Origin: Oscillospiraceae bacterium
GTDB lineage: Bacteria > Bacillota > Clostridia > Oscillospirales > Oscillospiraceae
DNA: 42,716 bases
NCBI GenBank assembly: GCA_015067465.1
Contig: SVMK01000009.1
Coordinates: 1 to 42,716, forward strand
Direction of reading: 5' to 3'
The number at the start of each line of letters is the position of its first letter. Within the stretch, counting starts at the first letter, position 1. The notes under the pieces are model-generated. The model was not told the origin of the DNA and did no database searches. It saw only the letters and a program-made list of their open reading frames with translations. Of this stretch, positions 14,976-36,524 are shown in pieces. A program made the translations under genes and the position numbers.

Positions 14976-15968
14976 ATGAAAATCAAGACGAAAGTTATGA
15001 GTATTGTTCTTGCCGCTGCAATGTGCCTGAGCCTGTGTGCGTGCGGCGCTTCCAAGCCCACTGCCGAAGCCGGCAAAAATGACGATGGCGTTAAGTACAC
15101 CGTCGGCGTGTGCCAGCTGGTTCAGCACAGCGCGCTGGACGCAGCCACCCAGGGATTTGTGGATGCGCTGAATGAGGCGCTGCCCGGACAGGTTGAAATT
15201 GAGGTCAAGAATGCCTCCGGCGAGCCCAACAACTGCACCACCATCGTCAACGGCTTTGTTTCTTCCGGCGTGGATCTGATTATGGCAAACGCCACCCCCG
15301 CGCTGCAGGCTGCTGTTGCCGCCACTGCAGACATCCCCATCCTCGGGACCTCCGTTACCGCCTACGGCGTTGCGCTGGACATGGAAGACTTCAACGGCGT
15401 TTGCGGCGGCAATGTTTCCGGTACCTCTGACCTCGCTGACCTTGACGCACAGGCTGAGATGATTCCCGCGTGGTGCCCCGATGCCAAGAATGTCGGCCTG
15501 CTGTTCTGCTCTGCCGAAGCAAACTCCCGCTACCAGATCGATGTTGTCAAAGCAAAGCTGAACGAGATGGGCCTGAACTGCACCGAGTATGCTTTCACCG
15601 ACACCAACGACGTTGCCTCCGTCACCCAGGCTGCTGCCGACAACAGTGACGTGATCTACATCCCCACCGACAACACCGCCGCCGCCAACACCGAAGCCAT
15701 TGCCAACGTTGTCATTCCCGCAGGCGTTCCCGTGATTGCAGGCGAAGAAGGCATCTGCAGCGGCTGCGGCATTGCAGCCCTTGCCATCAGCTACTACGAC
15801 CTTGGCCGCACCACCGGTGAAATGGCCGCCAAGATTCTGACCGGCGAAGCCAATATCTCCGAAACCGCCGTTGCTTACACCACTGCAACATCCAAATATA
15901 ATGCTGCTATCTGCGAGCAGCTCGGCATCACCCCGCTGGAGGGCTATGTTGCCATCGAGCAGGAATAA
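14976..15968 (+). CDS. ABC transporter substrate-binding lipoprotein, TrpX-like (PF04392-type)
   Basis: Lipobox SLCACG; YTVGVCQLVQHSALDAATQGFVDALNE..., MANATPALQAAVAATADIPILGTSVTAYGVAL, GLLFCSAEANSRYQIDVVKAKL. Confidence 0.9.
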   Translation: MKIKTKVMSIVLAAAMCLSLCACGASKPTAEAGKNDDGVKYTVGVCQLVQHSALDAATQGFVDALNEALPGQVEIEVKNASGEPNNCTTIVNGFVSSGVDLIMANATPALQAAVAATADIPILGTSVTAYGVALDMEDFNGVCGGNVSGTSDLADLDAQAEMIPAWCPDAKNVGLLFCSAEANSRYQIDVVKAKLNEMGLNCTEYAFTDTNDVASVTQAAADNSDVIYIPTDNTAAANTEAIANVVIPAGVPVIAGEEGICSGCGIAALAISYYDLGRTTGEMAAKILTGEANISETAVAYTTATSKYNAAICEQLGITPLEGYVAIEQE

Positions 15969-15978
15969 TGCACAGGCA

Positions 15979-16007
15979 CGAACCCGGGCATGTTGTGTCC
16001 GGGTTCG
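15979..16007 (+). other. Intercistronic stem-loop between binding protein and permease genes
   Basis: CGAACCCGG-gcatgttgtgt-CCGGGTTCG, 9-bp perfect stem, no U-tract. Confidence 0.65.
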
Positions 16008-16052
16008 GAAAGCAAATCCCCGCAGTGGGAATTCTACGGAGGATGAAAGCAC

Positions 16053-17000
16053 ATGAGTTTTCTGACATCATTTTTCAACGCCATGCCCGGTGCGGTTGCA
16101 CAAGGCCTGATTTGGGGCCTGATGGCAATCGGCGTATATATTACCTTCCGCATCCTCGATGTTGCGGACCTGACCGTTGACGGCTCAATCGCCACGGGCG
16201 GTGCGGTTTGTGTTATGCTCATCCGCATGGGCGTGAATCCTTGGGTGGCGGTGCTTTGCGCATTCTGCGCCGGACTGCTTGCCGGTTTGGTTACCGGATT
16301 GTTCCACACCCGCTGCGGCATTCCCGCAATTTTGTCCGGAATTCTGACGCAGCTGGCGCTGTATTCAATCAATCTTCGCATTATGGGCAGCAAGGCCAAC
16401 CAGGCGGTTGGCGTTGATAAGTACGATCTTCTGGTATCGCAGCGCTATGTCCGAGCGCTGAATCTGGACAATCCGCTGCCGCTGCTGCTGATTGCGGTGA
16501 TTGTGCTTGTTGGCGCACTGTACTGGTTTTTCGGAACGGAGCGCGGCTGCTCTATCCGTGCCACGGGTGCAAACCCCAATATGGCACGTGCGCAGGGCAT
16601 CAACACCAACCGCAATGTTGTGCTCGGACTGATGCTTTCCAACGGTCTTGTCGCGCTGTCCGGCGCGCTGCTGAGTCAGTATCAGGGTGCTGCCGATATC
16701 AACATGGGCCGCGGCGCAATCGTGATCGGTCTTGCGGCTGTGATCATCGGCGAAGTTCTGCTTGGCAAGGTGTTTCATAATTTCGCGCTCAAGCTCGCGT
16801 CTGTTGCCATTGGCGCCGTGATTTACTATATCGTGCTGCAGATTGTGCTGCAGCTCGGCCTCAACACCAATGACCTGAAGCTGATCACCGCAATTATTGT
16901 TGCCGTGTTCCTCGCCGTGCCTTATCTGCGCGCGCAGCACGGCGGAACCAAACACAAAAAACAGGGAAAGGAGCAAGAGGCAAATGCTGGAGCTGCGTAA
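16053..17000 (+). CDS. ABC transporter permease, TrpY-like
   Basis: AVAQGLIWGLMAIGVYITFRILDVADLTVDGSIATGGAVCV; multi-TM; GGAGG RBS. Confidence 0.92.
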   Translation: MSFLTSFFNAMPGAVAQGLIWGLMAIGVYITFRILDVADLTVDGSIATGGAVCVMLIRMGVNPWVAVLCAFCAGLLAGLVTGLFHTRCGIPAILSGILTQLALYSINLRIMGSKANQAVGVDKYDLLVSQRYVRALNLDNPLPLLLIAVIVLVGALYWFFGTERGCSIRATGANPNMARAQGINTNRNVVLGLMLSNGLVALSGALLSQYQGAADINMGRGAIVIGLAAVIIGEVLLGKVFHNFALKLASVAIGAVIYYIVLQIVLQLGLNTNDLKLITAIIVAVFLAVPYLRAQHGGTKHKKQGKEQEANAGAA

Positions 17001-26777: not shown

Positions 26778-27830
26778 TCAGGATTTTTTGCTGTTTTTGC
26801 GGGAGAGGACGATGCTTTGAATCAGCAGGAAGATGCAGATCATAGCGGCAACGGTGATGTTGGTCCACCATGCTTCGTCCAGACCGAGCGAGGAAACGAT
26901 GTTTTTGATTGTGCTCAGCGACAAAACGCCGAAGAACGTGCCCACAATATTGCCGACGCCGCCGGTCAGCATGGTGCCGCCGATGATCGAAGAGGCGATG
27001 GCGTTCATCTCCGCGCCGCTGGCGTGGGACGGAGAACCGGAACCGACGTGCATGAAGTAAACAAAGCCGCCGATGCCCGCGAGCAGGCTGCAGATGATGT
27101 GGGAGAGGAACTTGGTGCGCTTAACGTTGATGCCGAGCATGTTTGCGCTCTGGGCGTTGCCGCCGACGGCGTAGAAGCCGCGGCCGAGCTTGCTGCGGCG
27201 CAGCACGATAAACAGCACCACAACGATTACGAGAGCCACGATCACGCCGATTTCGATGTAGGCGGGGACGTAGATGCCTTTCTTGGTCACGGAACCCATG
27301 CCCGGGACATAGATGCGGGTGGATTTCAGCGCCTGGAACTGCTCGTTTGCAACGTTGAACTGCGTTGCATTGACGATGGTGGTCATGCCCTTGGCGAAGA
27401 ACATGCCGGCGAGGGTGACGATAAAGGGCTGAATCTCGAGATAGGCAACGAGATAACCCTGCACCACGCCGAACGCAAGGCCGATGGCAAGCGCGAGGCA
27501 GGCTGCGGTGACAACATTGCCGCCGTTATGGTCCAGATGCACGGCGCAGCTCATGCAAACGAGCGCCGTGAGCGTGCCGACGGAAATGTCAATGCCGCCG
27601 GAGATCATGACAATGCTCATGCCGCAGGACAGGATGATGAGTGCGGCGTTTTCGTTGAGGATGTTGAAGAAGGTCTGGGGCTTGAGGAAGCCGGACTTGA
27701 GGAATACCACCGCGCAGGTGTACATCACGAAAAATACGACGATCGTGATGAGCAGCAGCAGGTTGGTGTCGGACATGCCGACGCGATTCTGCTTCAGGCG
27801 GGGAGCGTTTTCTTTAGGCTGCATCCGCAC
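26778..27830 (-). CDS. Sugar ABC transporter permease (YjfF/RbsC family)
   Basis: FFNILNENAALIILSCGMSIVMISGGIDISVGTL...GVVQGYLVAYLEIQPFIVTLAGMFFAKG. Confidence 0.92.
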   Translation of the reverse strand: MRMQPKENAPRLKQNRVGMSDTNLLLLITIVVFFVMYTCAVVFLKSGFLKPQTFFNILNENAALIILSCGMSIVMISGGIDISVGTLTALVCMSCAVHLDHNGGNVVTAACLALAIGLAFGVVQGYLVAYLEIQPFIVTLAGMFFAKGMTTIVNATQFNVANEQFQALKSTRIYVPGMGSVTKKGIYVPAYIEIGVIVALVIVVVLFIVLRRSKLGRGFYAVGGNAQSANMLGINVKRTKFLSHIICSLLAGIGGFVYFMHVGSGSPSHASGAEMNAIASSIIGGTMLTGGVGNIVGTFFGVLSLSTIKNIVSSLGLDEAWWTNITVAAMICIFLLIQSIVLSRKNSKKS

Positions 27831-28941
27831 TCGCCTCCTTTACGTCCTTCTTCGGGGCAATCTTCTTCCACAGCACGGACAGCTTTGCACGCACGGTCGG
27901 GGCGCTGAGCACAACAAGGACAATCACGACGATGGCCTTGTAGGCGGGGAGCGCGGTGGAAGTGACGTTCAGCTTGTAGAGCGTGGTGGTGAGGAACTGG
28001 ATCACATATGCGCCGAAGATCGAAGCACCCATGTTAAATTTGCCGCCGCTGAGCGCGTTTCCGCCCAGTGCAACAGCCAGGATCGCGTCCATTTCGATGT
28101 CCTTTGCGACAACGGAATAGTTGATCGTGGAGAAGCGCGTGACCTTGATGAAGCCGGCAACGCCGACGCAGATACCGAGGATCATGTAGGAAATGAGCTT
28201 GATCACTTCGGGGTTGATGCCGTTGAGGCGGGAGGAGTGGGCGTTGATGCCCGCTGCCTGCGCATAGAGGCCGAGGTTGGTGAACTTCAGCACAAGCGCT
28301 ATGATGATCATACACGCCAAGGCGATGAAGATCGGCGTGGGCACGGGGATGCCGGGGATAAAGTTTCCGTAGTAGCCGAAAGTGGGATCGCTGATGATAG
28401 GCAGCTCGTTGTTGTTGATCCATGCGGCGATTGAACGGCCCGCAGTGTAGAGAATGAGGGTTGCAACCATCGGCTGAATGCGGAAATACGCAACGAGAAT
28501 GCCGTTGAAGCCGCCGAAGAGCATGGCTACGAAGCAGCAGGCAAGGAATGCCACGATGATCGGAGCCTGAAGAACTTCGGGACGGGAGTTGGTGCCGCAA
28601 AGCACGCGCAGCAGCACGCTGCCGGCGATGGCGATGGCGGAACCGACGGAAATATCCTGACCGCCGGAAGAAGCGGTGACCAAAGTCATGCCGATGGCAA
28701 GAATGGCCAGCTCGGAGGCGTTGTCCAGGATGGTGATGAGATAGCCGGAGAAAACGGGGTTTCCGGCGCTGTTGGTAGAGAGGGTGATCTTGAAAAACGA
28801 AGGATCCATGATCAGGTTAAACAGCACCAGAATCAGAAGCGCGGCGATGGGGATGAAGATCTGCTGGCGCACAATGCGCAGCAGGAAACTGCCGACCCCG
28901 CCGTTGGTGGTTTTCAGTTTTTCGCTCATGTCACGCTTCAC
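27814..28941 (-). CDS. Sugar ABC transporter permease (YtfT/RbsC family)
   Basis: LAILAIGMTLVTASSGGQDISVGSAIAIAGSVLLRVL...GGFNGILVAYFRIQPMVATLILYTAGRSIA; overlaps next gene. Confidence 0.92.
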   Translation of the reverse strand: MKRDMSEKLKTTNGGVGSFLLRIVRQQIFIPIAALLILVLFNLIMDPSFFKITLSTNSAGNPVFSGYLITILDNASELAILAIGMTLVTASSGGQDISVGSAIAIAGSVLLRVLCGTNSRPEVLQAPIIVAFLACCFVAMLFGGFNGILVAYFRIQPMVATLILYTAGRSIAAWINNNELPIISDPTFGYYGNFIPGIPVPTPIFIALACMIIIALVLKFTNLGLYAQAAGINAHSSRLNGINPEVIKLISYMILGICVGVAGFIKVTRFSTINYSVVAKDIEMDAILAVALGGNALSGGKFNMGASIFGAYVIQFLTTTLYKLNVTSTALPAYKAIVVIVLVVLSAPTVRAKLSVLWKKIAPKKDVKEASADAA

Positions 28942-30442
28942 CTCCCGCGATTGTTGCCATAATGTTGTTCTGGGTCAGTTCCTTGCCGGAAAGCTCGCCG
29001 ACCACCTTGCGGTCACGCATAACAACAAGTCTGGAGCAGGTGCGCAGCATCTCGTCTGTTTCCGAGGAGATGAACGTCACGCTTTTGCCCTCGGCTGCCA
29101 GCTTGAGCACCAGTTTCTGGATTTCAACCTTGGTACCGATGTCGATGCCGCGGGTCGGTTCGTCCAGAATGAGGTAAACAGGGTTGGTGAGCAGCCAGCG
29201 GGCCAGAATAACCTTTTGCTGGTTGCCGCCGGAGAGGGACTTGATGGGTGTGTCGGAAGAACTGGTTTTGATGTCAAGCAGCTTGATGTATTCGTCTGCG
29301 AATTTTTCCGCCTGCGCTCTGGAGAAAGGACGGAAGAAGCCTTTCATAACCTGCAGGGCGAGAATGATATTCTCGCGCACGGAGAGATCGCCGACGATAC
29401 CGTCGCGCTTGCGGTCTTCGGGCAGATAGCTGATGCCGTTGCGCATGGCGTCGATCGGCTTGGAGATGCGGATCTTTTTGCCGTTCATGGTAACGGTGCC
29501 GCCCAGAACGCGATCCGCACCGTAGATGGCACGGACACATTCGCTTCGGCCGGAACCGAGAAGTCCGGTGAAGCCGTTTACTTCGCCCTTGTCTATGTAG
29601 AAATCAAAGGGCTTGATGCCGGCGGTGCTGTGGAGCTGCTGCACTTCAAGCAGCGGCTCATCCTTGCGGCCGGCGGAAATTTCATCTTCAGGGTTTTTGA
29701 TGCTGCTGAGATCGTCCAGCTCTTTGCCGAGCATCTTGGAAACGAGCTGCAGACGAGGAAGATCCTGCACCGCGTATTCGCCGACGAGCTGACCGTCGCG
29801 CAAAACGGTGATTCTGTCGCTCACCTCGTAGACCTGATCGAGGAAGTGGGTGACGAACAAAATCGCAACACCCTTTGCCTTCAGGTCGCGCATGAGCTTG
29901 AAGAGCTTCTCAACCTCGTGTTCATCGAGAGAAGAGGTGGGCTCGTCCAGGATCAAAACCTTGCATTCCATGTCAACGGCGCGCGCAATGGCGATCATCT
30001 GCTGAACTGCGATGGAGCAGCTGTCGAGCTGCTGGTTTGCCTTTGCGGGAATGCCGAGGGAATCAAGCAGTTTGCTTGCATCGGCGTTCATTTTCTTCCA
30101 GCTGACTGCGCCGCGGCCTCTGCCGATATACATATTTTCAGCAACGGTCAGGTTGGGGCAGAGGCTGATCTCCTGATAAACCGTGCTGATGCCCTGGTTC
30201 TGTGCGTCCTGCGGCGAGCGGATGGAAACCGCGCCGGGGATGCCCTTGAGCATAATCTGGCCTTCGTCTTTCTGATAAACGCCGGTCAGAACCTTAATCA
30301 AAGTGGATTTTCCTGCGCCGTTTTCGCCCATCAGCGCATGGATTTCGCCCTCACGCAAGGTGAGGTCAACATTTTGAAGCGCTTTCACGCCCGGGAAAAA
30401 TTTGCAAATGCCACGCATTTCAAGCACAATGCCCTCCTGCAT
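28931..30442 (-). CDS. Sugar ABC transporter ATP-binding protein, duplicated ABC domain (YtfR/RbsA family)
   Basis: GENGAGKSTLIKVLTGVYQKDEG; LDEPTSSLDEHEVEKLF; LLGSGRSECVRAIYG; LSGGNQQKVILARWL; ATG 30442 after GAGGAGG. Confidence 0.95.
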   Translation of the reverse strand: MQEGIVLEMRGICKFFPGVKALQNVDLTLREGEIHALMGENGAGKSTLIKVLTGVYQKDEGQIMLKGIPGAVSIRSPQDAQNQGISTVYQEISLCPNLTVAENMYIGRGRGAVSWKKMNADASKLLDSLGIPAKANQQLDSCSIAVQQMIAIARAVDMECKVLILDEPTSSLDEHEVEKLFKLMRDLKAKGVAILFVTHFLDQVYEVSDRITVLRDGQLVGEYAVQDLPRLQLVSKMLGKELDDLSSIKNPEDEISAGRKDEPLLEVQQLHSTAGIKPFDFYIDKGEVNGFTGLLGSGRSECVRAIYGADRVLGGTVTMNGKKIRISKPIDAMRNGISYLPEDRKRDGIVGDLSVRENIILALQVMKGFFRPFSRAQAEKFADEYIKLLDIKTSSSDTPIKSLSGGNQQKVILARWLLTNPVYLILDEPTRGIDIGTKVEIQKLVLKLAAEGKSVTFISSETDEMLRTCSRLVVMRDRKVVGELSGKELTQNNIMATIAGGEA

Positions 30443-30519
30443 GGTTAACCGCCTCCTCTGTAAGCCGCCGGAAAAAAGACGCGGCTTTAAATGGGAAAAT
30501 GCCGGATGATATAAGAACA

Positions 30520-30570
30520 CACGCGATGCGCTCTGTTCGGGCAGCAGCCCGAACAGAAGTGCACCGCGTG
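30520..30570 (-). other. Long intercistronic stem-loop between binding-protein and ATPase genes
   Basis: Plus strand CACGCGATGCGCTCTGTTCGGGC-agca-GCCCGAACAGAAGTGCACCGCGTG, about 23-bp imperfect stem, no U-tract. Confidence 0.75.
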
Positions 30571-30610
30571 CTCTGTCTCACCTGACGGGCAAGTGAGTTT
30601 GTGTCAGGAA

Positions 30611-31660
30611 TTAGATGCCGTAGTTGTCAACGTCTTCCTGGGTGATGGTGGTAGCGTCGAAGCCCTTCTCGGTCATGATGACGACCTTGTCGGCGGGAGC
30701 GATGCCATTCTCAAGATCCTTGATGATGGTGTCGATGTAGGAAGCCTGGAAGGGGTTGCACTGACCGTCGTAGTTCCAGTTGCCGGCCAGCAGCTCTTCG
30801 AGTGCCCAGTGGTTGCAGTCGAAGCCCATGATGATGACGTCGCCGTCAACACCGTGAGAGATGTTTGCCTTGTCGAGAGCAGCGACAGCGCCCTTGGCCA
30901 TGTCGTCGTTCTCAGCGTAAACAACGTTGAATTCCTTGCCGGAGTCGATGACAGCCTGAACGATCTGCTCAGCGGTCTCAGCGTTCCACTCAGCGGTCTG
31001 CTGGGTCACGAGGTTCCAGTTGTCCTTGGCAGCGACCATCTCGTCGACAGCGCCGGTACGGCCGATCTGAGCTGCGGAGCCCATAACGCCCTGGATGTGA
31101 ACGATGTTGTAAACGTCGAGGTTCTGGGACTCGAGCCATGCAACAGCGGTGTTGCCTTCCTGAGCCATGTCAGAAACGATGGAAGCCTCATACAGGCTGG
31201 GATCTGCATCGATGGTGCGGTCGAACAGGATGACCTTGATGCCGGCAGCCTGAGCGTCCTGGAGAACGCTGTCCCAACCGGCGGTGCCGGCTGCGGAGAG
31301 CAGCAGGTAGTCAACTTCGTCCTGGATGAACTTCTGAGCAGCAGCGATCTGCTCGTCGTTCTTCAGGCTGTATGCGAAGGATGCTTCGTAGCCGTTGGCC
31401 TCGGTGAAGGTGGCCTTCATATCCTTGTCATTGGCGGTGCGGTAGCCGGACTCGTTGGGGTCGTTGTTGATGATGCCGACCTTGATCAGAGTGGCTTCGG
31501 GCTCTGCGGGAGCAGCGGGCTCGGCAGGAGCTGCGGGAGCTGCGGGCTCAGCAGGAGCTGCAGGTGCTGCGGGAGCAGCGGGGGTTTCGGTCTTGCCGCC
31601 GCAGGCGCAGAGTGCAAGAACCATGCAAAGAGCGAGCAGGAGTGCAAAGAACTTTTTCAT
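30611..31660 (-). CDS. Sugar ABC transporter substrate-binding lipoprotein (YtfQ-like) with Ala/Pro/Glu-rich linker
   Basis: MKKFFALLLALCMVLALCACGGKTETPAAPAAPAAPAEPAAPAAPAEPAAPAEPEATLIKVGIINNDPNESGYRTAND...; GAGGGAAG RBS. Confidence 0.92.
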   Translation of the reverse strand: MKKFFALLLALCMVLALCACGGKTETPAAPAAPAAPAEPAAPAAPAEPAAPAEPEATLIKVGIINNDPNESGYRTANDKDMKATFTEANGYEASFAYSLKNDEQIAAAQKFIQDEVDYLLLSAAGTAGWDSVLQDAQAAGIKVILFDRTIDADPSLYEASIVSDMAQEGNTAVAWLESQNLDVYNIVHIQGVMGSAAQIGRTGAVDEMVAAKDNWNLVTQQTAEWNAETAEQIVQAVIDSGKEFNVVYAENDDMAKGAVAALDKANISHGVDGDVIIMGFDCNHWALEELLAGNWNYDGQCNPFQASYIDTIIKDLENGIAPADKVVIMTEKGFDATTITQEDVDNYGI

Positions 31661-31711
31661 TTTTTCTTCCCTCACAATTAAATTTTAGGTGAATCGGTCA
31701 CCCATGTTTGC

Positions 31712-31741
31712 ATTATTAACATGTATGCCCGAAACCGTCAA
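31712..31741 (-). promoter_or_regulatory. Promoter of the sugar ABC operon
   Basis: Minus strand TTGACG (31741-31736) - 17 nt - TAATAAT (31718-31712). Confidence 0.78.
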
Positions 31742-31753
31742 CGCCTGAAAAAC

Positions 31754-31792
31754 AACAGCGTAAAAAAATCAACAAACAGCGTAAAAAAATCA
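31754..31792 (-). repeat. Two identical 18-bp direct repeats, 21-bp period; candidate activator binding sites
   Basis: AACAGCGTAAAAAAATCA at 31754-31771 and 31775-31792, 12 bp upstream of the -35 box. Confidence 0.8.
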
Positions 31793-31809
31793 TAAAAACA
31801 CTGTTTTTA

Positions 31810-32814
31810 TCAGTACGGACGTTCGGACAAGTCGGTTTCGGAGATGCGGCGGTAGGAAAACCACGTTTCGTCAACATAAACGAGTTTTTCCGGTGTTTCG
31901 CCCGCCTCCAGCTGGCGGATCAGGTTGGCAACGCGCGGGCCGTGCATGGGATTGCATTCAACGCAGAGATTGATATTGCCGGCAAGGCACTCCTCCAGCG
32001 CGGCATGCACGGCATCGAAGGTGATGATGATAATATCGCCGTCCGGGCCGTAGGTGAGCCCGGCTTCGTCCAGCGCCTGCATTGCGCCGAAGGTCATGTT
32101 GTCGTTTTCGCTGTAAATGACGTTGAAGCTCTCTCCGGTTTCCAGAAAATCGCGAACCACCTCATAGCCGCATGCTTCGGTAAATTCGCCCTGCAGCCGC
32201 GCTGCGATCGACCAGAGCGGATGGGAGGCCACGGCGGAATTGAGCGCGTGGGTGCGCAGAATCTGCGCGGTTGCACCGTCGGTGCCCTGAATGTGGAGGA
32301 TGCGGATATTCTCGTTTTGCATGCGCTTGAGGGAAATCTCGTTTTCAAGCCACTGCACGGCGGTGCGGCCTTCTTTCAAAAAGTCCGACCCGACCCAGCT
32401 GACATACAGCGATTCATCCTCCACCTGGATCTGGCGATCCACGATGATGACGGGCAATCCCGCATCCTTCGCTTCCTGCAAAACGCTGTCCCAGCCCGTT
32501 TCTGCAATCGGAGCGAGCACGATATAGTCCACGCCCTGCTGGATAAAATTGCGTATGGCGAGAAATTGGTTTTCCTGCTTCTGCTTTGCGTTGTCAAACA
32601 GCAGGTCGAAGCCGTTTTCTTCCGAGAGCGCGTCGAGCATGGACTGCGTGTTGGCAATGCGCCAGTCAGACTCCGAGCCGAGCTGGGAAAATCCGACCAC
32701 GATCAGATCTTTTTCCGGCGGCTCGGGTTCGGACTTGACGGCGCAGCCGCAGGAGGCTGCCAGAAGCGTGCACGTCACGAGCAGCGACGCAATATTTTTT
32801 ATCGTTTGTTTCAT
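31810..32814 (-). CDS. Second YtfQ-like substrate-binding lipoprotein, encoded with the two-component system
   Basis: MKQTIKNIASLLVTCTLLAASCGCAVKSEPEPPEKDLIVVGFSQLGSESDWRIANTQSM...; ATG overlaps HK stop (ATGA); the longer ORF to 33162 lies over the HK. Confidence 0.9.
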   Translation of the reverse strand: MKQTIKNIASLLVTCTLLAASCGCAVKSEPEPPEKDLIVVGFSQLGSESDWRIANTQSMLDALSEENGFDLLFDNAKQKQENQFLAIRNFIQQGVDYIVLAPIAETGWDSVLQEAKDAGLPVIIVDRQIQVEDESLYVSWVGSDFLKEGRTAVQWLENEISLKRMQNENIRILHIQGTDGATAQILRTHALNSAVASHPLWSIAARLQGEFTEACGYEVVRDFLETGESFNVIYSENDNMTFGAMQALDEAGLTYGPDGDIIIITFDAVHAALEECLAGNINLCVECNPMHGPRVANLIRQLEAGETPEKLVYVDETWFSYRRISETDLSERPY

Positions 32815-34241
32815 TTGGCAGATCCCTCCGCGGTGTTGTCGAGCGGGATGATGATGGTGATCGTCATGCCGTCGTCGGGTGTGCTGTCGATGGTGAAAGT
32901 GCAGCGCTCGCCATACATCAGGCGCAGCCGCTTGTAGGCGGCGATCAGACCGAAGCCGGACGCGTCCTCCTGCAGCGAAGCACGGATTTCGGCAAGCTTT
33001 TCGGGGGTGAGTCCGGCACCGGTGTCCTGCACGCGGATGCAGGCGCAATCGCCTTCCTGCGATGCGGTAACCGCGATGCGGCCGCCGCCACGCTTGGGCT
33101 TGATGCCGTGGTAAATTGCATTTTCCACCAGCGGCTGCAGCGTCATTTTCGGGATGCAGCAAACATCCAGCGCGGGATCAATGGAGATCTCGTAGCGCAG
33201 AATGTCCTTATAGCGCACCTGCTGAATTTCCAGATAGCTGCGCACGTGCTGGGCTTCCTCACGCAGGGTGATGATGTCCTTGCCGTTGCTGAGGAAGGAG
33301 CGGAAGTAGGTGGAAAGGCTGGAAACCATCTCCTGTGCCTGTTCGTTTTTGCCCGTTTCGATGAGCCAGATGATGGTGTCGAGCGTGTTGTAGAGAAAAT
33401 GCGGGTTGATCTGCGCCTGCAGCAGGGCAAGCTCGGTTTCGCGCAGCTTCTGCTGCTCGCGTTCGTTGAGCTCCATCTGCGCGCTGAGCTTGCTGACCAT
33501 TTGCTCAATGCCGTCGCTGAGCGTTTGCAGCTTTTCGTCGTCGGCTTCAATGGGCGGCTGCGCGGCGAGATCACCGCGTCCGATCTCGCCGACACGCACG
33601 CACAGCGCGTCGATCGGCTCGGCAATGTTGCGTGCAAGGCGCGAAGCGTTCGCCGTGAGGAGGGTGACCAGCAAAATGACAAGCAGGATCGTGACCGAAA
33701 GATCCACGATCATCCATGTCTGCAAACTGGCCTCAAGCTCCGCCATTTCACCCGCTTCATAATACAAATATGTATAAATGTAGCGCTCTATGAGTTGGGT
33801 GATGATATAAACATTCGATTCCAGCTGACTCATACGCGCATCGTAGCCTTCGGTACGCTCGATTTCGCGGATGCAGCTGTCGAGATTGTCGCAAAGGCTC
33901 AGGATATTGTCGATCACCTTGAGACTGTCGCGGTTTTGGGTGCTTTCGCGCAGCGTCATGGCCAGCTGCCGTGCCGTTTCCACTTCTTCCAGCGGCAAAA
34001 CATCGCTGCTGCCGGTGACGAAATAGTACATCTTCAGGTCAACTTCGTCTTTGAAATTCCGGTTGAAAGTGGAGGCCACCGTGATGTTGCGGCTGGCCTT
34101 GGAGTTCTGCACGCTGAACTGAACGAAAAACAGCAGCAGAAACGCGGCAAGCACACACATGGGCATGATCGTCCATACCGTCATGCGCCAGAGCTTGCCG
34201 TCAATTGTTTTTTTGTTTTTATGAAAGGGAAGAATCCTCAT
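32811..34241 (-). CDS. Sensor histidine kinase, YesM/LytS-like (HisKA_7TM-independent, His_kinase domain)
   Basis: HAMP-like region; QAQINPHFLYNTLDTIIWLIETGKNEQAQEMVSSLSTYFRSFLSNGKDIITLREEAQHVRSYLEIQQVRYKD; PLVENAIYHGIKPKRGGGRI; VQDTGAGL. Confidence 0.95.
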   Translation of the reverse strand: MRILPFHKNKKTIDGKLWRMTVWTIMPMCVLAAFLLLFFVQFSVQNSKASRNITVASTFNRNFKDEVDLKMYYFVTGSSDVLPLEEVETARQLAMTLRESTQNRDSLKVIDNILSLCDNLDSCIREIERTEGYDARMSQLESNVYIITQLIERYIYTYLYYEAGEMAELEASLQTWMIVDLSVTILLVILLVTLLTANASRLARNIAEPIDALCVRVGEIGRGDLAAQPPIEADDEKLQTLSDGIEQMVSKLSAQMELNEREQQKLRETELALLQAQINPHFLYNTLDTIIWLIETGKNEQAQEMVSSLSTYFRSFLSNGKDIITLREEAQHVRSYLEIQQVRYKDILRYEISIDPALDVCCIPKMTLQPLVENAIYHGIKPKRGGGRIAVTASQEGDCACIRVQDTGAGLTPEKLAEIRASLQEDASGFGLIAAYKRLRLMYGERCTFTIDSTPDDGMTITIIIPLDNTAEGSAK

Positions 34242-35833
34242 TTATCTGTCTCTCCGGCACGGTATTCCTTCGGGGTGCAGCCCTGCGTTTTTTTGAACAC
34301 AAAGCTGAAATAGCGCGGATCCTTGTAGCCCACGGCTGTGGCAATCTCGCCGGAGCGCATATTGCTGTGGCGCAGCAGCTGGCGGGCTTTTTCCATGCGT
34401 TTTTGTGCGAGATATTCCACGAACGACAGGCCGGCGCGCTGACTGAAAACGGCGCTGAGATAGTTTGCGCTGACATTGATGGCCTTGGCAAGGGAGTTGA
34501 GGGAGATGTTTTCGTCGGCGAAATGCTCGTCAACGTAGGCCAGCGCGCGGTCGGCAAGGTCGCCGGTTTGCTTCTGCGAAAGCTCATCGCGCATATCCAT
34601 GGCAAGGCGCAGGGCGCTGCGAATGTAATCGCGCATCTCCCCGGCGGAGATTTCGGGCTCCATCGGCGGCAGCGCGGCAAGGAATGCGTCGCGGTCCGCG
34701 CCCAGCTCCTGCAATACGAGCGCGGCGTTGATGCGAACGTTCAGGAGCAGATAATGGCGAAACGGCGCGTTGCCTGCTGCGCTGCGCAAACTTTCGGTGT
34801 ATTCCGAAACGAAAGAATCCACCTCATCGGAAAGTCCGGTTTTCAGAAAATTCCGGATGATGAGCGGGTCTAAGCTGTCCACATCCGGGGCGTCGATGCT
34901 TTGGGGCGGCTCATGTGCGCCGCGGCGTGCGGCCTCCTCGGTGAGGATATGGGTTTCCGGCATCAGGTGACGGTGGGCGAGCAGACGTCCGGTTTCGGCA
35001 AAGCTTTGCGGCAGCGCGGAAAGGCTGAACACAGGGCGGCCGGCGGCGGCGTACCACAGCAGGGAAAAGCCCGCGCTCTCGCAGATGAAGCCGATGATAT
35101 CAAGGCACTGCTGCGTCAGCGCCTCCAGACGGTTGGGAGCGCCCTTGATGAGCACGGCGTGGCTGAATATGCCGGTGCGGAACAGAAGATGGCAGTCCTC
35201 CTGCGCAAGCCGGTGGAGCAGCTCGTCCTGCAGTGTGTCCACGGGCTCGGAGTAGGATGAGGGGGCGGTTTGCGGCTGCAGGGTGAACAGAACAAGCGCA
35301 TAGCCGCGCGCCGCGATGTCGATATGGAGCGCCTCGGCCTCGCTGAGCAGATCCGCCTGCGGCGAGGCTGCGTTTACCAGCTTTTCAAAAAAAGCGTTGC
35401 GCTCGATTTCCAGCGCTTCCAGCGCATATTTCAGCGAATAGCTTTTCTGCTCGCGCGCTTCCTCAATGTGGCGGCGGGTGCGCTCCAGCGCGGCAACCAT
35501 ATCCGCTTTCATGATGGGCTTGAGCAGATACTGGTCCACATGCAGCTCAATGGCCTGGCGGGCATATTCAAAATCGTCGTAGCCGCTGAGAATGATGATG
35601 TGCGTGTCCGGCAGCTCACGGCTGACAATGCGGCTGAGCTCCAGACCGTCCATAAACGGCATTTTGATATCAGTGATCAAAACGTCGGGACGAATCTCCA
35701 GCAGCTGCGGCAGCGCCATTTCACCGTCCGTTGCTTCGCCTGCGAATATATAGCCGCAGTCACTCCAGGGAATGCTGTCGCGCAAACCCTCACGCACAAC
35801 GCTCTCGTCCTCTGTCAGAAAAACCTTCAGCAT
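34238..35833 (-). CDS. Response regulator with AraC-type DNA-binding domain (YesN family)
   Basis: MLKVFLTEDESVVREGLRDSIPWSDCGYIFAGEATDGEMALPQLLEIRPDVLITDIKMPFMDGLEL; C-term ISLNSLAKAINVSANYLSAVFSQRAGLSFVEYLAQKRMEKARQLL...YKDPRYFSFVFKKTQGCTPKEYR; ATGA overlap with HK. Confidence 0.96.
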   Translation of the reverse strand: MLKVFLTEDESVVREGLRDSIPWSDCGYIFAGEATDGEMALPQLLEIRPDVLITDIKMPFMDGLELSRIVSRELPDTHIIILSGYDDFEYARQAIELHVDQYLLKPIMKADMVAALERTRRHIEEAREQKSYSLKYALEALEIERNAFFEKLVNAASPQADLLSEAEALHIDIAARGYALVLFTLQPQTAPSSYSEPVDTLQDELLHRLAQEDCHLLFRTGIFSHAVLIKGAPNRLEALTQQCLDIIGFICESAGFSLLWYAAAGRPVFSLSALPQSFAETGRLLAHRHLMPETHILTEEAARRGAHEPPQSIDAPDVDSLDPLIIRNFLKTGLSDEVDSFVSEYTESLRSAAGNAPFRHYLLLNVRINAALVLQELGADRDAFLAALPPMEPEISAGEMRDYIRSALRLAMDMRDELSQKQTGDLADRALAYVDEHFADENISLNSLAKAINVSANYLSAVFSQRAGLSFVEYLAQKRMEKARQLLRHSNMRSGEIATAVGYKDPRYFSFVFKKTQGCTPKEYRAGETDK

Positions 35834-35869
35834 GAAAATCACCTCTTGCCGACAAAATCCGTATCTTTC

Positions 35870-35898
35870 AGTATAGCGTGAAACAGTTCAAAACGCAA
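35870..35898 (-). promoter_or_regulatory. Candidate promoter of RR-HK-binding-protein operon
   Basis: Minus strand TTGCGT (35898-35893) - 17 nt - TATACT (35875-35870). Confidence 0.5.
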
Positions 35899-35940
35899 TC
35901 GTTTCCCCTGCGCTGCTGCACGAAAAAACATCGATATGCT

Positions 35941-35968
35941 TTGAAATTTTCGGGACATGTGGTATGAT
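35941..35968 (+). promoter_or_regulatory. Candidate promoter of NUDIX-RluA-TrmO operon
   Basis: TTGAAA - 16 nt - TATGAT. Confidence 0.5.
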
Positions 35969-36047
35969 GAAAATATGCCGTGCGCAGGCACGGCGTGAAC
36001 AAACGAAAGGGAAACGCGGTCCGGCCGGTATCGGCTGCGGCCGAAAG

Positions 36048-36524
36048 ATGAACGCCATGCTGCAAAGCACGCTGTGCTATATCGAGCGCGGGGAGGAGTG
36101 GCTGCTGCTCCACCGTGTGAAAAAAGAAAATGACGCCAACCGCGATAAATGGATCGGCTTGGGCGGAAAATTCGAGGACGGGGAAAGTCCGGAGGAATGC
36201 ATGCTGCGCGAAGTGCGCGAGGAAACGGGACTGCAGCTGACCGCCTGGCGCTACCGCGGCATTGTCACATTCGTGTCCGACCGCTGGGAAACGGAATATA
36301 TGCATCTGTTCACCGCGGATGCCTTTGAGGGCGAAGTGGGCGAATGCAGCGAAGGCGTTCTGGAATGGGTGCGCAAGGCTGATTTTGCTGCGCTGCCGCA
36401 ATGGGAGGGCGACCGTATTTTCCTGCGGCTGCTGGAAGAAAATGCGCCGTTTTTCTCTTTGAAGCTGCGTTATGAGGGCGAACGCCTTGCCTATGCCGCG
36501 CTCAACGGTGCGCAGATCGTATGA
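36048..36524 (+). CDS. NUDIX hydrolase (MutT-like)
   Basis: Nudix box GKFEDGESPEECMLREVREETGL; start codon uncertain (36048 or upstream in-frame). Confidence 0.9.
   Translation: MNAMLQSTLCYIERGEEWLLLHRVKKENDANRDKWIGLGGKFEDGESPEECMLREVREETGLQLTAWRYRGIVTFVSDRWETEYMHLFTADAFEGEVGECSEGVLEWVRKADFAALPQWEGDRIFLRLLEENAPFFSLKLRYEGERLAYAALNGAQIV

Follow-up and report, generated by a model that had tools for sequence, protein, structure and literature searches.

A predicted tandem operator of a YesN-type response regulator upstream of a sugar importer operon, and its motif in related loci

Described three-component systems and the gene cluster

YesN-type regulators abound in gut Clostridia, but to our knowledge their operator sequences are rarely known. 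In the AraPST-AraEGH system of Geobacillus stearothermophilus, AraT is said to bind the araE promoter region, a result credited to Shulami and co-workers in 2011, and the PDB entries 6swf, 6swb, 6swi and 6swj are presumably structures from this system. Its second binding protein is used for transport in a two-SBP arrangement, and C. beijerinckii, G. stearothermophilus and R. cellulolyticum each have an established three-component system with two such proteins (PMC10384115). The XylFII-LytS-YesN system of Clostridium beijerinckii, which occurs together with the importer XylFGH, is cited in PMC7017829 and PMC10384115. Furthermore, sugar or polysaccharide genes of Ruminiclostridium cellulolyticum are under AraC-type response regulators, as described for CuaDSR-CuaABC (PMC10384115) and XydS/R (PMC3572039).

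The locus described here belongs to an already known kind of system, as represented by AraPST, XylFII-LytS-YesN and CuaDSR. On the minus strand of the window (the whole stretch of DNA analyzed, 42.7 kb), the genes for a YesN-type response regulator, a kinase and the sugar-binding lipoprotein SBP2 are followed by the repeats and a promoter, and then by the genes for SBP1, an ATPase and two permeases (Table 1). An AraC-type response regulator with a receiver, an adjoining LytS/YesM-type kinase and an extra sugar-binding lipoprotein, i.e., the elements of the three-component layout, are all present. With AraPST-AraEGH the locus has in common a sugar-binding lipoprotein, a kinase and an AraC-type response regulator beside a CUT2 importer, whereas the sequence identity is low. 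The XylFII-LytS-YesN system has the same layout of a sensing binding protein, a LytS-type kinase, a YesN-type regulator and an importer with its own SBP, but its sensor is of the xylose type, whereas both binding proteins are closest to YtfQ here. CuaR is explicitly of the YesN/AraC type with the receiver-central-HTH layout found here (PMC10384115); the substrates and transporters of CuaDSR-CuaABC and XydS/R differ.

Table 1. Features of the locus with their positions in the window
Feature	Position	Strand	Sequence or basis
YesN-type response regulator (receiver, central region, AraC-type HTH), presumed repeat binder	34238-35842	minus	Pfam/PDB matches
LytS/YesM-type histidine kinase	32811-34241	minus	His_kinase PF06580 and HATPase_c; PDB 6swj
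SBP2, second sugar-binding lipoprotein, presumed sensing subunit	31810-32814	minus	Peripla_BP_4; resembles YtfQ structures
Distal repeat copy	31775-31792	minus	TGATTTTTTTACGCTGTT, 18 nt
Proximal repeat copy	31754-31771	minus	TGATTTTTTTACGCTGTT, 18 nt
Proximal copy read on the plus strand	31757-31773	plus	AGCGTAAAAAAATCAAC; matches the conserved motif in full
Predicted sigma-A promoter of the importer operon	31712-31741	minus	TTGACG 31741-31736, N17, TAATAA(T) 31718-31712
Short hairpin where the transcript is predicted to begin	31686-31704	minus	TGGGTGACCGATTCACCTA; not clearly a terminator
SBP1, importer substrate-binding lipoprotein	30611-31657	minus	Peripla_BP_4; YtfQ-like, below equivalog cut-off
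Importer ATP-binding protein, YtfR-like	28931-30445	minus	
Importer permease 1, YtfT-like	27814-28941	minus	
Importer permease 2, YjfF-like	26778-27830	minus	

The YesN-type response regulator of the adjacent operon and the sugar ABC operon downstream, both named in the first-pass annotation, were confirmed with Pfam and NCBIfam, as was the kinase. The domains Response_reg, HTH_18 and HTH_AraC of the regulator all scored above cut-off, and its best PDB sequence matches were two-component response regulators; its PDB matches include 6swf/6swb/6swi, 3lsg and AraC 2k9s. The kinase gene overlaps the regulator gene. SBP2 is encoded besides SBP1, and both are Peripla_BP_4 proteins with a lipoprotein signal recognized by eye. 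For all four importer proteins, the galactofuranose models YtfQ, YtfR, YtfT and YjfF were the best ones. All four scores lie below the curated equivalog cut-offs, so galactofuranose is a possible rather than an assigned substrate of the importer.

A second importer is encoded on the plus strand (14976-17000) by genes for an ABC_sub_bind substrate-binding protein and, following it, a BPD_transp_2 permease. In two congeners (G001 and G002, each about 85% complete), no regulator, SBP2 or SBP1 was found at the thresholds used, and for this reason the regulator-SBP cluster may have been gained recently in this genome or lost in the congeners.

The repeat pair and its promoter

The gap between the sensor binding-protein gene SBP2 and the importer gene SBP1 comprises 152 bp. 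On its minus strand, two copies of an 18-nt sequence are located which are identical in 18 of 18 nt and follow each other with a period of 21. The first-pass annotation had described this direct repeat pair and, 12 bp from the proximal copy, the promoter TTGACG-N17-TAATAAT. Both were found exactly at the positions given in Table 1, and a consensus scan calls the same promoter, with a predicted transcription start at about 31705. The two sites thus point in the same direction and keep the helical phase upstream of a predicted sigma-A promoter.

An exact repeat of 18 nt was obtained in 0 of 20,000 first-order Markov shuffles of the intergenic sequence, for which the maximum was 15 nt. Allowing up to three mismatches, the 18-mer occurs nowhere in the window except at the two copies (expected number of occurrences, 0.06). 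In the 1.82-Mb assembly, which is 85% complete, no other place with two or fewer mismatches was detected and one further place has three. Besides the repeat pair, the window has close direct repeats of at least 17 nt only as a codon repeat within the gene for SBP1 and as a pair separated by 113 bp. The former consists of Ala/Pro/Glu codons with a 9-bp period (31494-31582) and encodes a linker of this protein. A possible third, degenerate copy at about 31796-31812 was seen by eye and left out of the counts.

A chance or neutral tandem duplication without function is highly improbable as the origin of the pair. Such an event is suggested by the perfect identity of the copies and by the fact that the exact pair is not common to the relatives, and the duplication may for these two reasons be recent; against it stand the shuffles, none of which gave such a repeat, and the match of the unit, where it would be expected, to a motif derived independently (described below).

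T-tracts were also considered as a terminator, but a terminator scan calls none at the repeats and just the weak hairpin past the start site. Hairpins with different letters were seen by eye in similar places, right after the predicted start, in the relatives L011, L012, L017 and L024, and the z-scores from shuffles were weak. A divergent GntR/LacI-hybrid (AraR-like) gene was read in the SBP2-SBP1 gap of L011, L012, L183 and L184; L017 and others are likewise listed with it. An Rfam scan of 30400-36200 identified no RNA family, and a search of plasmid DNA resulted in nothing beyond distant conserved coding pieces.

A motif shared with related loci

A regulator-based genome scan resulted in 80 loci, further loci were fetched from whole genomes, and in 58 relatives the region upstream of an importer could be used. 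The motif was grown from four seeds in two of these 58 relatives, with the window excluded, and reads (A/T)TCGTAAAAAAA(C/T)AAAC. As many of the loci are related, locus counts do not represent independent events. The first-pass annotation had made conservation upstream of orthologous operons the test of its proposal, and the motif was found there in dozens of loci with the same regulator adjoining. Within the 42.7-kb window, the proximal repeat is the top match of the relatives-only motif with 19.0 bits, followed by a match with 13.3 bits.

As a guard against circularity, each of the two gene-order groups was used to train a model that was then applied to the other group; group A has the order RR-kinase-SBP2. 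Of the 25 B loci, 8 contained matches of at least 14 bits to the A model, where shuffles predict 0.4; of the 32 A loci, 17 contained such matches to the B model, where 0.1 is predicted. The window site is ranked first by the A model (20.4 bits) and third in the window by the B model (12.4 bits). Across whole loci, almost all matches of at least 14 bits are located within the gap upstream of the importer. Where no importer follows the sensor genes, no site of this strength is found there, L044 excepted.

The comparison with the relatives changes the outline of the site. The pair as such is real, but the conserved unit is CGTAAAAAAA(T/C)(C/A)AAC on the plus strand and not the 18-mer proposed initially. 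The two copies are identical over 18 nt, but the full conserved core is present in the proximal copy only. In the distal copy the core is intact, but the conserved terminal AAC is replaced by ATA, due to which it is predicted to be the weaker half-site (about 7.3 bits with the relatives-only motif).

A motif search elsewhere in the genome, as recommended in the first-pass annotation, was carried out and returned the window site as the only exact one. A looser form of the motif matches as often genome-wide as its backward control. Taken together, these two results give no sign of a wider regulon. As far as the literature searched shows, the motif is apparently new for this regulator subfamily.

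In a separate search with SBP1, importer operons were gathered irrespective of the regulator. Seven of them, all orthologous (L099, L101, L102, L103, L105, L108, L112), have no such YesN-type regulator in the fetched upstream DNA, and none of these contains a site of at least 12 bits. In the importer operons with regulator from the same search (L104, L106, L109, L117, L113) the motif is present, four of these five also being in the training set; untrained positives with regulator are L184 (same genome as L113), L186, L187, L189 and L191. For L100, the sensor genes end at a contig edge and are located on a different contig. No strong match was found in L098/L183 (G232), whose regulator is 54% identical and the closest with an adjoining orthologous importer, and the match in L181 is weak. 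With the exception of L183 and L181, the site is both conserved and linked to the regulator, as in a tandem operator of the AraC family. The HTH domain of the window's regulator (about residues 424-534) shares 57-71% identity with its counterparts in the motif-bearing relatives, and both recognition segments hardly differ.

It is very improbable that the repeats are bound by another regulator co-conserved with the importer, e.g., a GntR/LacI-hybrid (AraR-like) repressor, even though in many loci a gene for such a repressor lies in the same intergenic region as the motif, between sensor gene and importer. Since the motif is kept where the gap holds no repressor gene (L024, L028, L072, L078-L080 and the window), the repressor is not the common factor. 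In addition, half-sites of the ATTTGTA(T/C) type, present in many loci between the motif and the -35 region, look like the repressor's own site and are absent from the window, and only distant matches to GntR-type HTH domains were detected in the host genome.

The two T7 tracts, which are 21 bp apart and located just upstream of the -35 region, where an UP element or an intrinsic curvature would be expected, could also stimulate the promoter as phased T-tracts, as an UP element or as bent DNA, i.e., without a regulator. This is very improbable, as the CG and AAC outside the A-tract are conserved in the relatives, the motif tracks the regulator and not the importer, and the motif of the relatives is located 115-240 bp before the start, beyond the reach of an UP element.

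The repeats had been proposed as a candidate site of the adjacent YesN-type regulator. This assignment is upheld by the conservation of the motif with the regulator and its absence from the seven regulator-less operons, while the unit, the spacing and the orientation were corrected in detail. Judging from sequence comparison, the repeats very probably serve as operator for the YesN-type response regulator whose gene lies a short way upstream; this regulator most likely acts as an activator of the importer operon.

Proposed mechanism and comparison with described operators

In the mechanism that we infer, SBP2 would bind a sugar from outside the cell, which is probably a furanose or a pentose of the arabinose type, and the sugar-loaded SBP2 would act on the LytS-type kinase. 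The kinase would phosphorylate the YesN-type regulator, and the phosphorylated regulator would bind both sites, which lie on the same face of the DNA at a distance of two helical turns, via its AraC-type DNA-binding domains. Contact of the bound regulator with RNA polymerase at the adjoining TTGACG promoter would then switch the importer operon on. In one close relative (L178 in G163), whose regulator is 55% identical, a gene for an FGGY sugar kinase and araD, which scored above its cut-off, come after the same three sensor genes in place of an importer. These two genes suggest an L-arabinose-type sugar as the signal of the sensor system.

The arrangement of the sites differs from that in the relatives. 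There, 82 of 83 sites are on the coding strand, whereas the pair of the window is on the opposite strand. In 24 loci of relatives with a recognizable promoter, the nearest site edge is located 114-243 bp before the predicted start, and the sites of the main group of relatives keep to -149 and -181 with hardly a base of deviation. In the window the site edge is at about -50 from the predicted start, which is about 100 bp closer, so that the pair shares neither orientation nor position with the orthologous loci. The exact 21-bp pair is present here, but the typical spacing in the relatives is 32 bp (the commonest, with 13 pairs); spacings of 19-21, 31-33 and about 40 bp were also seen. As 19-21, 32 and about 40 bp occur, the spacings of the relatives approximate whole numbers of helical turns. 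In L017, L029 and L034 (75 bp) and in L024 (97 bp), a third motif copy was observed upstream of the pair, close to a whole number of turns.

The usual layout has no room in the window, because the gap comprises only 152 bp, without repressor gene or ATTTGT sites. Chances are about even that in this lineage the operator was flipped and moved by about 100 bp next to the -35 region with loss of the repressor gene and its sites from the gap, a remote activator site having been turned into a promoter-proximal reverse one for the same regulator family.

The motif (A/T)TCGTAAAAAAA(C/T)AAAC, which is conserved in dozens of loci of the Oscillospiraceae and Lachnospiraceae type and goes with one regulator subfamily, provides a concrete operator prediction, by which the control of sugar importers becomes testable in mostly uncultured bacteria. 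The flipped layout offers a natural comparison of the weight of orientation and distance for an AraC-type response regulator.

Among the described regulators, XydR was analyzed in mobility shift assays with promoter fragments, and direct repeats were noted near predicted promoters (PMC3572039). For AraC-type two-component regulators of Caldicellulosiruptor bescii, the parts of PMC8579813 available to us report tandem-repeat sites upstream of promoters, and the regulators are inferred to be activators. Within the same parts, GxgRS with the CUT2 importer GxgABC resembles the locus described here in its tandem repeats, a predicted activator and one local importer target, whereas a flipped, promoter-proximal arrangement is not described in them. 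As far as the literature searched shows, this form of the motif is apparently undescribed.

Class I sites of MarA, SoxS and RamA in enterics, which are in reverse orientation and located 53-73 bp upstream of the start, similar to the position of the pair in the window, can activate, and forward and reverse sites coexist in one regulon (PMC10268841). The flip is therefore not an argument against activation, and since both orientations occur in the AraC family, it bears on the variant and not on the membership in this family. MarA, SoxS and RamA are small regulators without receiver which use single sites, whereas tandem sites and a response regulator are found here.
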